The translations under genes were made by a program, and so were the position numbers. From NCBI RefSeq assembly GCF_039831995.1, contig NZ_JBDOIO010000004.1, positions 1,364,001 through 1,428,000 on the forward strand: a DNA stretch of 64,000 nucleotides. The letters are read 5' to 3'. Below are positions 20,034 to 24,344 of the stretch, piece after piece; the first letter of the stretch is position 1, and every line of letters starts with the position of its first letter. The notes under the pieces were generated by a model. It made no database searches. It had not been told where the DNA came from and saw only the letters and a list, made by a program, of their open reading frames with translations. This DNA comes from Paenibacillus pabuli. Lineage in GTDB: Bacteria > Bacillota > Bacilli > Paenibacillales > Paenibacillaceae.

Positions 20034-23000
20034 ATGTCCGATAGGCGTAAACGGGTAAATATCAAAGCATTTCTGGAAGGTAGATCGTTCAGGGCGGGAT
20101 CACCCTTCATTCCTATAACAACAGGTGAGCAGGAGCAGTTTGAAACATTACTTCAATCCTTGGCTATCACGATCCCCACTGCAGTTAGTCAGCCTACAGC
20201 TGCTAACATACTTGCATTGCAATCGGGATTACGGAATGTACTTACTTTTGTTAACGAGTCAGGTTTTCGTGCTGGCGTTAAGGCCGAACTTCAAGCCGTA
20301 TTAGAATTAACCATTGCATCCTCCGAGGTTGTACCTGTTGCGTTAGTCAACTTGTCTGGCAACTTGCAGAATCTGCTGGATGATCTGTTGAGCGTGACTT
20401 TATTGCTCGAGGTGCCCCCGCCAGAAAAAGATAAACTGGTAGGATTAATTCGAAACATGTCCATATCTCTTAGCCGTGCAACGATTGGGATTGGTTCGTC
20501 CGGGATAACTGGACCTGCTGGTCCACCGGGAGTCCCTGGAGTACCAGGCGTGCCCGGAGTGCCTGGAGTGCAGGGACCGGCAGGGCCTCCAGGAGAGGTG
20601 GGCTTGGCGGGTCCAGCAGGTCCAGCAGGATCCGTGGGCCCAGTCGGTCCGATCGGTCCAGCCGGACCACAAGGTGCTCAGGGACCACCAGGAGCAACAG
20701 GCGTAGGGTTAAATAATGTAACGCCTTACGATCCGGCAGAGGGTCCAAGTTATTCTCAAGGCCAAGTAGTCAGTTATAATGGGAATTTTTATGTTGCTAC
20801 GGTGAATAGCCCAACGGGTATCCCGGGAAGTTCGCCAGATTTCACATTGCTGTTATCGGGTGGAACAACGGGTGCTACGGGAGCAACTGGCGTAACTGGC
20901 GCAGGTTTAACAGGCATTGTTGCTTTTGATCCTGCGCTTGCCCCGTCGTATGCTTCCGGGCAAATTGTAACCTTTGCGGGTGGAACATATATTACGAATG
21001 TAGTCTCTCCGACAGGAACGCCAGGAAGTTCAGCGGATTATACATTACTTGCGAGTGCAGGAGCAACCGGCTCGACAGGAGCAACCGGCATAGGCTTGGA
21101 AGGATCGGTGCCATTTGATCCGGCCGTAGCTCAGACATATCCGGCCGGTCAGGTGGTTACGTTCAACGGCAGTACTTACATTACGAATGTGGCCTCTCCG
21201 ATAGGAACGCCAAATACATCCCCGGATTATACACTGCTTGCGGGTGCGGGACCTACTGGTTCAGCAGGTTCAACGGGAGCGACAGGAATAGGTTTAACTG
21301 GGATTTTGCCATACGATCCGGCCGTGGCGCCAACATATCCAGCGGGTCAGGTGGTTACGTTTAACGGCAGCACGTATATCGCCACTGTTGCATCCCCAAC
21401 GGGAACACCAGGAACGTCTCCTGACTACACGCTGCTTGCCGGAGCAGGGGCGACAGGAGTAACTGGTGCAACAGGCGTGAGTGTAACAGGAAGCACAGGA
21501 AGTCCAGGAGCTACAGGTCCAACAGGTCCAACAGGTCCAACAGGATCGACAGGAGTAGGACTAAGCGGAATTTTGCCCTTCGATCCAGCCGTAGCACCAA
21601 CATATCTAGCGGGTCAGGTAGTTACGTTCAACGGCAGTACGTATATCGCGAATGTTGCGGCACCGACCGGGACACCCGGAACCTCTCCGGATTACACATT
21701 ACTGGCTGGCGCAGGGGCAACGGGCGTTACCGGATTCACTGGAGTAACCGGAGCAACAGGGATCACGGGGATAACCGGAGCGACCGGGTTTACAGGCATC
21801 ACAGGTTTTACAGGTGAAACCGGGGCAACAGGGGCAACAGGGATTACAGGTATCACAGGTATCACGGGTGCGACAGGTGTTGGTTTGAGTGGAGTGTTAG
21901 CATTTGATCCAGCCGTTGCACCAACATACCCAGCGGGTCAGGTAGTTACGTTTAACGGCGGTACGTATATTGCGAATGTTGCTGCACCAACGGGAACACC
22001 AGGAACATCTCCGGATTACACATTACTGGCGGGCGCAGGGGCAACAGGCGTTACCGGATCAACTGGGGCAACCGGAGTCACCGGTGATACTGGGGGAACA
22101 GGAGCAACGGGAACCACGGGTATAACGGGAGTGACCGGGGTTACAGGATTTACTGGTGTCACTGGTATAACAGGTGCCACCGGGGAAACTGGAGCAACAG
22201 GCATCACAGGTGCGACCGGTATTGGTTTGAGTGGAGTTGTACCATTCGATCCAGCTGTGGCTCCAACGTACCCAGCAGGTCAAGTAGTTACGTTCAATGG
22301 AAGTACGTATATTGCCAATGTTGCAGGGCCAACCGGAACACCAGGGACATCGCCAGATTACACATTACTGGCGGGTGCAGGGGCAACGGGTGTTACCGGA
22401 TCAACTGGGGCAACCGGAGTCACCGGTGATACTGGGGGAACAGGAGCAACGGGAACCACGGGTATAACGGGAGTGACCGGGGTTACAGGATTTACTGGTG
22501 TCACTGGTATAACAGGTGCCACCGGGGAAACTGGAGCAACAGGGATTACAGGTATAACTGGAGCGACTGGAGTTACAGGGGTAACTGGTGATACGGGAGT
22601 GACCGGAGCAACGGGTATAACAGGAGCAACAGGCATTACAGGTGCGACCGGTATTGGTTTGAGCGGAGTTGTACCATTCGACCCAGCTGTGGCTCCAACG
22701 TACCCAGCAGGTCAAGTAGTTACGTTCAATGGAAGTACGTATATTGCCAATATTGCATCGCCGACCGGAACACCAGGGACATCGCCAGATTACACGTTAC
22801 TGGCGGGTGCAGGGGCAACTGGTGTAACCGGATTAACTGGAGGCTCTGGCGTAACAGGTGCCACCGGGGATACTGGAGCAATAGGGATCACGGGTATAAC
22901 TGGAGCGACTGGAGTTACAGGGGTAACCGGTGATACGGGAGTGACCGGAGCAACGGGTATAACAGGAGCAACAGGCATTACAGGTGCGACCGGTATTGGT

Positions 23001-24344
23001 TTGAGTGGAGTTGTTCCATTCGACCCAGCTGTGGCTCCGACGTACCCAGCAGGTCAAGTAGTTACGTTCAATGGAAGTACGTATATTGCCAATGTTGCAG
23101 GGCCAACCGGAACACCAGGGACATCGCCAGATTACACATTACTGGCGGGCGCAGGGGCAACTGGTGTAACCGGAGCAACAGGTATAACTGGAGTTACAGG
23201 GTTAACTGGTGATACGGGAGCAACTGGCATTACCGGGATTACGGGAGTGACCGGAGATACAGGAGTTACTGGTGTTACTGGAGCAACGGGTATAACTGGA
23301 GCAACTGGCATCACAGGTGCGACCGGTATTGGTTTGAGTGGAGTTGTACCATTCGATCCAGCTGTGGCTCCAACGTACCCAGCAGGTCAAGTAGTTACGT
23401 TCAATGGAAGTACGTATATTGCCAATGTTGCAGGGCCAACCGGAACACCAGGGACATCGCCAGATTACACATTACTGGCGGGTGCAGGGGCAACTGGTGT
23501 AACCGGATTAACAGGAGTCTCTGGCGTAACAGGTGCCACCGGGGATACTGGAGCAACAGGAATAACTGGAGTGACTGGGGTTACAGGGGTAACTGGTGAT
23601 ACGGGAGCAACTGGAATCACGGGAGTGACCGGAAATACAGGATCTACTGGTGTCACCGGAGAAACGGGTATAACGGGAGCGACTGGCGTAGGAGTAACAG
23701 GAAGTACAGGGGTTACTGGAACCACAGGTGCTACGGGAGTAACGGGTACAACTGGCATAACTGGAGAGACTGGTATAACCGGAGCAACGGGTGTAGGCAT
23801 AACGGGAAGTACGGGAGTAACCGGGGCAACAGGTGCAACTGGGGAGACAGGTATAACAGGTGCCACCGGTGCAACTGGCATTACGGGGGCGACTGGTGTC
23901 GGATCCACTGGGGCTACTGGCGCCACAGGTGTAACAGGAACTTCGGTTACAGCAGCTTCCTCATACGCAGAGAATACAAATGGAACCATTCTGGTTATTT
24001 TGGGAGGTACATTAGTTCCACTCCCTGATAACCAAAATATAGGAACAGGCATCACAGTGAATGGAACCAGTGATACGTTTACTCTCGCTACCGCAGGACG
24101 TTATTATATTAGTTACAAAATCAATCTTACCGCAGCTCTCGCTGTCCAATCTCGGATATTGCTTAATGGTGCTGTAGTTCCACCAAGTGTAATCTCACCA
24201 GTACTTTCGCTTAGCCAGTTAGCAACCGACTTTATTATAACCGTCACAGCTGGATCAACCATTCAACTGCAATTGTTTGGCTTGATTGCAACAGCAGTAC
24301 TGTCACCTCCGGGTGCAACACTTAATATCATTCGGTTAAGCTAA
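20034..24344 (+). CDS. Collagen-like surface protein with ten interspersed modules
   Basis: Very large 1436-residue protein, probably an exosporium or surface filament. Residues 1-155 form a non-collagen head without a cleavable signal peptide. A first Gly-X-Y stretch (about 160-222, rich in GPAGPP and GVPGVPG) is followed by ten copies of a module of about 45 residues (starts near 223, 289, 352, 418, 507, 615, 729, 873, 987 and 1098) separated by GAT/GVT/GIT-type triplets. Each module has [19 protein letters not shown] and ends [11 protein letters not shown]. The C-terminal 134 residues resemble the trimerising C1q/TNF-like tip of BclA. GGAGGATTGG precedes ATG 20034. Exosporium location is inferred. 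Confidence 0.9.
20700..23460 (+). repeat. Ten tandem module repeats within the collagen-like gene
   Basis: The modules start at 20700, 20898, 21087, 21285, 21552, 21876, 22218, 22650, 22992 and 23325. Spacing grows from 189-198 nt in the first four to 324-432 nt in the later ones because the collagen linkers lengthen. A 152-bp block (22050-22201) recurs exactly at 22392-22543, which shows recent duplication with a 342-bp shift. Modules seven to ten are nearly identical at DNA level. Confidence 0.95.

Follow-up and report, generated by a model that had tools for sequence, protein, structure and literature searches.

In the BclA/Bcl glycoproteins of the exosporium the N-terminus is a short exosporium leader; BclA_C tips form trimers, as do collagen-like chains. 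Beads-on-a-string F-ENA fibres are described on Bacillus and Paenibacillus spores (available part of PMC11952670), and interrupted collagen regions in prokaryotes are mentioned in a review (PMC8968730, in part). Here we analyse a 64,000-nucleotide stretch of the Paenibacillus pabuli genome ("the window", whose numbering is used throughout), in which a gene at 20034..24344 encodes a collagen-like protein with a BclA-type tip. Its stem is broken by ten copies of a module that has the predicted fold of the CBM5/12 carbohydrate-binding modules (CBMs) but lacks their known chitin-binding aromatic residues. We think that the product is, on balance, probably a BclA-like homotrimeric filament of the spore surface, expressed in the mother cell, whose beads are mainly structural.

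Layout of the collagen-like protein

The gene is a single uninterrupted open reading frame (ORF) of 1436 amino acids with an ATG start, on the forward strand like all of its parts and flanking signals mapped below. It begins with a non-collagen head (residues 1–150, 20034..20483) and a GPP-type collagen stretch in which 24 triplets were counted (residues 154–225, 20493..20708). Ten modules, each of 48 amino acids between conserved ends, then alternate with GXT runs of 4–31 triplets; these are module 1 (residues 226–273, 20709..20852), module 2 (292–339, 20907..21050), module 3 (355–402, 21096..21239), module 4 (421–468, 21294..21437), module 5 (510–557, 21561..21704), module 6 (618–665, 21885..22028), module 7 (732–779, 22227..22370), module 8 (876–923, 22659..22802), module 9 (990–1037, 23001..23144) and module 10 (1101–1148, 23334..23477). 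A distal GXT stem 3' of module 10 (23478..23963) leads to the C-terminal tip (residues 1311–1436, 23964..24341), which by itself matches BclA_C (PF18573) with 151 bits against a cut-off of 38. Thr closes 170 of the whole protein's 211 counted triplets, and the collagen profile PF01391 scores 208.7 bits, the GXT-rich GXY stem being of the kind found in BclA-type glycoproteins.

A preliminary description of this DNA had proposed just this order of parts, including the BclA-like tip and the beads-on-collagen layout, and the ORF and profile matches confirm it, with folded-type modules separated by GXT runs. It had also called the modules near-identical and 45 residues long; the repeated unit is real, but its length is 48, and near-identity holds for the later copies only (modules 4–10 are 85–100% identical in pairwise comparison, and 7, 9 and 10 have the same protein sequence), while module 1, the most divergent of the ten, is 50–62% identical to the other nine.

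The modules and the chitin-binding residues

The CBM5/12 profile PF02839 scores 114.7 bits on the whole protein (cut-off 26.2), and ten separate stretches pass. A single module scores 23.6 bits against the same cut-off, and among the matches listed from a scan of the genome nine modules score 21.0–23.8 bits; comparison of a single module with PDB chains gave weak matches, the best being 1ed7 (E 0.061). The predicted fold of the modelled copy (module 4 with flanks, 21291–21446) is the small beta fold of CBM5/12, and together with the PF02839 profile this supports the earlier suggestion of a CBM5/12-like module. Profile and predicted fold would also suit beads that are multivalent glycan-binding modules, for chitin, cellulose or other environmental glycans, on a filament that serves as an adhesin. 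The presence of up to 20 copies per chain would suit avidity, and collagen-like fibres have been proposed as host adhesins in Pasteuria (PMC6238073 and PMC10987987, both in part).

The residues that grip chitin in characterised members of the family speak against such binding. In ChiA1 we take W687 to be the chitin-binding Trp of CBM12. In CBM5 a pair of adjacent aromatics, Y-W or W-W, is conserved almost throughout and matters for binding, a third aromatic adds to it, and Y265 and W299 belong to the core (available part of PMC8449059). When the window modules are aligned to CBM5, the pair positions hold mostly V and A (V and N in module 1) and the third site holds S. The same is true well beyond the window: in 447 modules of the genus (the fetched-locus set plus the ten of the window; the column statistics use 437/438 modules from fetched loci, some out-of-frame pieces included) the two pair positions are aromatic in none, the third site in two and the W687 position in none, while the core aromatics are kept in 444 and 443. 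Residues that replace the chitin-gripping aromatics are mostly V, A, T and S, and Trp is present in only 3 of the 438 fetched-locus modules. An alignment of 67 rows that includes other genera has no aromatic residue at any of the binding sites (0/67 each) and retains the core positions in 66 and 67 rows. Two GH18 chitinases of the same genome have CBMs that retain the W687-type Trp and both flanking Trp residues; these CBMs are ChiA1-like and likewise without the CBM5 pair, so they control for the W687 site alone.

Since the core aromatics are retained and the binding aromatics replaced, it appears that the CBM5/12 fold has been kept and the known chitin grip lost. The chitin or cellulose binding suggested in the preliminary description, and with it the idea of a standard chitin-binding module, is thereby weakened by both the residue map and the chitinase control. 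The modules would, as far as their sequences indicate, not be canonical CBM5/12 chitin or cellulose binders, although another ligand is possible, and we regard glycan-binding beads as unlikely. P35, G37, P39 and S42 are almost invariant across the modules, and in the aligned sequences these residues are a signature of this branch of CBM5/12.

Orthologues and wider distribution

Of the 75 genomes of the genus, 62 have heads that match NF033172. The survey of the architecture in Paenibacillus for which the preliminary description had called finds a module-bearing gene by resE (that is, with a strong match to resE on the fetched stretch that holds it) in 48 of the 75 genomes, namely 47 relatives and the window; serA is there too in 35 of the 47. 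All 47 fetched head ORFs by resE, like that of the window, contain modules. In a tree of the heads, whose bootstrap had not settled, modules are present in every row of one clade (50 rows, these 48 among them) and absent from every row of the other (29 rows), with a split of 100/100; two long rows, L078 and L079, have one module each and are not by resE. Where the gene is missing from this place (27 genomes), resE and serA adjoin with a short gap in all 20 that were fetched.

Among 76 named module-bearing loci 44 are from Paenibacillus (for example P. xylanexedens, P. amylolyticus and P. taichungensis); other record titles name Bacillus, Priestia, Terribacillus, Geomicrobium, Shouchella, Alkalihalobacillus, Metaclostridioides, Paraclostridium and others, and a few Terribacillus modules have a Trp at another site. 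A protein search gave at least 2056 matches, and 102 among the 120 matches listed have both Collagen and CBM_5_12. The acidobacterial proteins P0060, P0076 and P0108 (also P0013, 1938 amino acids) combine collagen and CBM_5_12 with PF24517 (DNRLRE); in P0060, P0076 and P0108 the final Trp is conserved in the first module, which has no W-W pair.

Every module carrier in two surveys has SpoIVA (25/25 and 6/6). In the Bacilli survey modules occur in 25 of 348 genomes and SpoIVA in 236, so the co-occurrence is consistent with a link to sporulation, with an excess that is not significant when counted by genus.

Copying of the repeat unit

TRF finds a direct tandem repeat zone with a period of 342 bp at 21855..23607 (21855–22553 at 91% matches, 22488–23607 at 86%). 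Because the distal half of the repeat region consists of these 342-bp units, module and GXT linker have evidently been copied as one unit. The number of modules varies from 6 to 20 in 25 intact proteins (24 relatives and that of the window), a set that leaves out 12 ORFs interrupted at a contig end and a further 11 that are closed but lack BclA_C. Four of the latter have another tip and seven have an altered end, probably through frameshift or truncation; these seven (L035, L036, L045, L052, L060, L068 and L107, all by resE) end early or have no in-frame BclA_C tip, which may reflect repeat slippage or assembly error. Linkers are not always whole triplets long (124 of 247); such uneven lengths could fit a helix that restarts after each module, with kinks as an alternative. 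Concerted evolution of the modules within each protein was tested and is not evident (53/435). The dN/dS ratio is 0.113 for the first module, 0.047 for the last and 0.084 for the head, rough values since the synonymous differences (pS) are near saturation; orthologues and purifying selection together rule out chance or a frameshift artefact as the source of the architecture.

Head, tip and upstream region

The head scores 97.1 bits (cut-off 40) with NF033172, a family named "collagen-like repeat preface", and a search of its own genome found one copy. Its AF2 model (mean pLDDT 88) is a helical bundle after a basic N-terminus of low confidence, and a Foldseek search with it gave nothing at E <= 0.001 and nothing convincing. 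Residues 5–28 (20046–20117) are nearly invariant in close orthologues, model confidence being low up to about residue 20, and are possibly a targeting or anchoring peptide. By eye no exosporium leader was recognised at the N-terminus, and no profile for such a leader was run; nor were a signal peptide or LPXTG seen by eye in the protein. The tip is not the same in all relatives: four orthologues by resE (L072, L075, L076 and L077) carry one that differs from BclA_C, and that of the L072 subclade matched no Pfam family, so the tip appears to be exchangeable.

Alignment of upstream regions revealed a promoter-like pair, GATAATT and CATAAGCT separated by 15 nt, at 19967..19996. The CATA box is present in all 26 aligned regions (25 of 26 listed loci, one being too near a contig end, and the window), and an exact GATAATT stands 15 nt before it in 21. 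The pair resembles a mother-cell promoter of the sigma-E type; no sigma-70-type site was found in 19700–20200. A ribosome-binding site, AAAGGAGG, can be read at 20014..20021, and each of the 26 rows has GGAGG or GGGGG downstream of the CATA box and ahead of the start codon. Both this conserved promoter-like pair and the absence of any export or sorting signal discernible by eye fit a spore-surface product.

The protein might instead belong to vegetative cells, as a collagen-like adhesin that is secreted or sits on the cell surface, and not to the spore. NCBIfam models of such adhesins do match it, all below their cut-offs (SclB 186.5 bits of 325, Lcl 180.4 of 500, SclA 131.3 of 400), and related proteins with collagen and CBM_5_12 occur in acidobacteria, which are not known to form endospores. 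We consider this improbable in view of the BclA_C tip, the unseen sorting signals, the conserved CATA box without a recognisable sigma-70 site, and the presence of SpoIVA in every carrier, though most genomes have SpoIVA.

The gene sits, as the preliminary description had placed it and as the ORF coordinates bear out, between resE, which ends at 19831, and the convergent serA (24410–26005); these two names follow that description and known gene families. A terminator-like hairpin with a T run, read by eye at 24356..24385, is common to the gene and serA. Rfam searches of 19750–20200 gave only sub-threshold matches. An inverted repeat, TGTTCAACGTGGAACA, lies at 19908–19923 in the resE-serA gap and is parS-like with an altered centre. 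A wider form of this palindrome occurs exactly once per genome in 70 of the 75 genomes of the genus, and it is retained in the 20 fetched genomes that have no collagen gene at resE-serA, which rules it out as a regulator site of that gene; it belongs to the gap.

Relatives on viral contigs

Two viral contigs from one metagenome have collagen ORFs with such modules (L186, 4686–6065, and L187, 4554–6026). In L186 the ORF is downstream of holin and endolysin genes, and in L187 an endolysin gene lies about 3.5 kb before it; the products may be part of the virion or cargo for the host spore. These positions downstream of lysis genes, and matches to PHROG tail-fibre families (mostly through collagen), raise the question of whether the window gene is a tail-fibre-type phage gene left in the chromosome. 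This seems highly improbable and is largely refuted. No phage genes were recognised beside the gene, which resE and serA flank in the window, and its place by resE is conserved in the 48 genomes; this context rules out a phage origin for the window copy. A tblastn search with two modules against 50,697 phage records gave no match (E 1e-5, low-complexity filter on), and no relative of the head was confirmed in the viral contigs.

A proposed beaded filament

If the product is the homotrimeric spore-surface filament that we favour, the BclA_C tip would bring three chains into register, and these would wind into GXT and GPP collagen rods. As BclA_C tips and collagen-like chains are trimeric, three modules are expected per bead: at each module three CBM5/12-fold units would lie next to one another and form a globular bead, after which the triple helix would resume. 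The helical head would anchor the filament to the spore's outer layer. The beads would act as spacers and register nodes that set the length, stiffness and surface of the filament, and gain or loss of module and collagen linker as one unit would make its length tunable.

We tentatively extend this to a broader proposal, itself somewhat doubtful, in which forming a trimeric bead is a second role of the CBM5/12 fold, one without carbohydrate. A Trp-less branch of the family would serve as collagen register node and spacer in endospore-formers and in related phage-borne genes, copying of module and linker would tune filament length and surface, and the proteins would form a class of beaded bacterial collagens apart from plain BclA stems. 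If so, many proteins labelled chitin-binding from a CBM_5_12 match do not bind chitin, and the fold is a building block that interrupts collagen at regular points. This would bear on the surfaces of Paenibacillus spores in soil and on plant roots, and on the design of beaded collagen materials.

Comparison with known systems

The protein is conserved in a whole clade and probably surface-exposed, and we found no description of collagen with CBM5/12 beads in a spore protein in the open PMC literature. To this extent the preliminary description's "undescribed architecture" holds; the combination of collagen and CBM_5_12 is, on the other hand, common in databases (see the 102 matches above), and interrupted bacterial collagens have been reviewed (PMC8968730, in part).

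Like the window protein, the BclA/Bcl glycoproteins have an N-terminal domain, a Thr-rich GXY stem, a BclA_C tip and length variation through repeat number. The window-type protein, known here from its sequence, differs in its NF033172 head and in a stem broken by 6–20 folded modules. It has this head in common with a paralogue clade of the same genus, which is without modules in 29 of 29 rows. With the CBM5/12 chitin-binding domains (PF02839) of ChiA1 (1ED7), S. marcescens ChiB and MmChi60 the modules share the predicted fold and core aromatics; unlike those domains, they are without the known chitin-binding aromatics, have no enzyme attached and are set in collagen. Phage tail fibres and baseplates have CBM5/12-like domains (9rkv, 8fqc, 8kec and 7b5h) that are alike in fold, with the PxGTP loop also in 9rkv, but sit in phage gene context, unlike the window gene. 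The fibres of phage A-1(L) are trimers (PMC10966104, in part), and a keyword search of the available parts of two phage-fibre papers (PMC10966104 and PMC12796354) met no mention of collagen. The F-BclA tip fibrilla of spores is, in the available part of PMC11952670, a collagen-like protein whose tip is of the C1q/BclA type, and in this it resembles the product proposed here. The beads of the F-ENA fibres treated in the same text are DUF4183 subunits, whereas those of the window protein are CBM5/12 modules within one chain.
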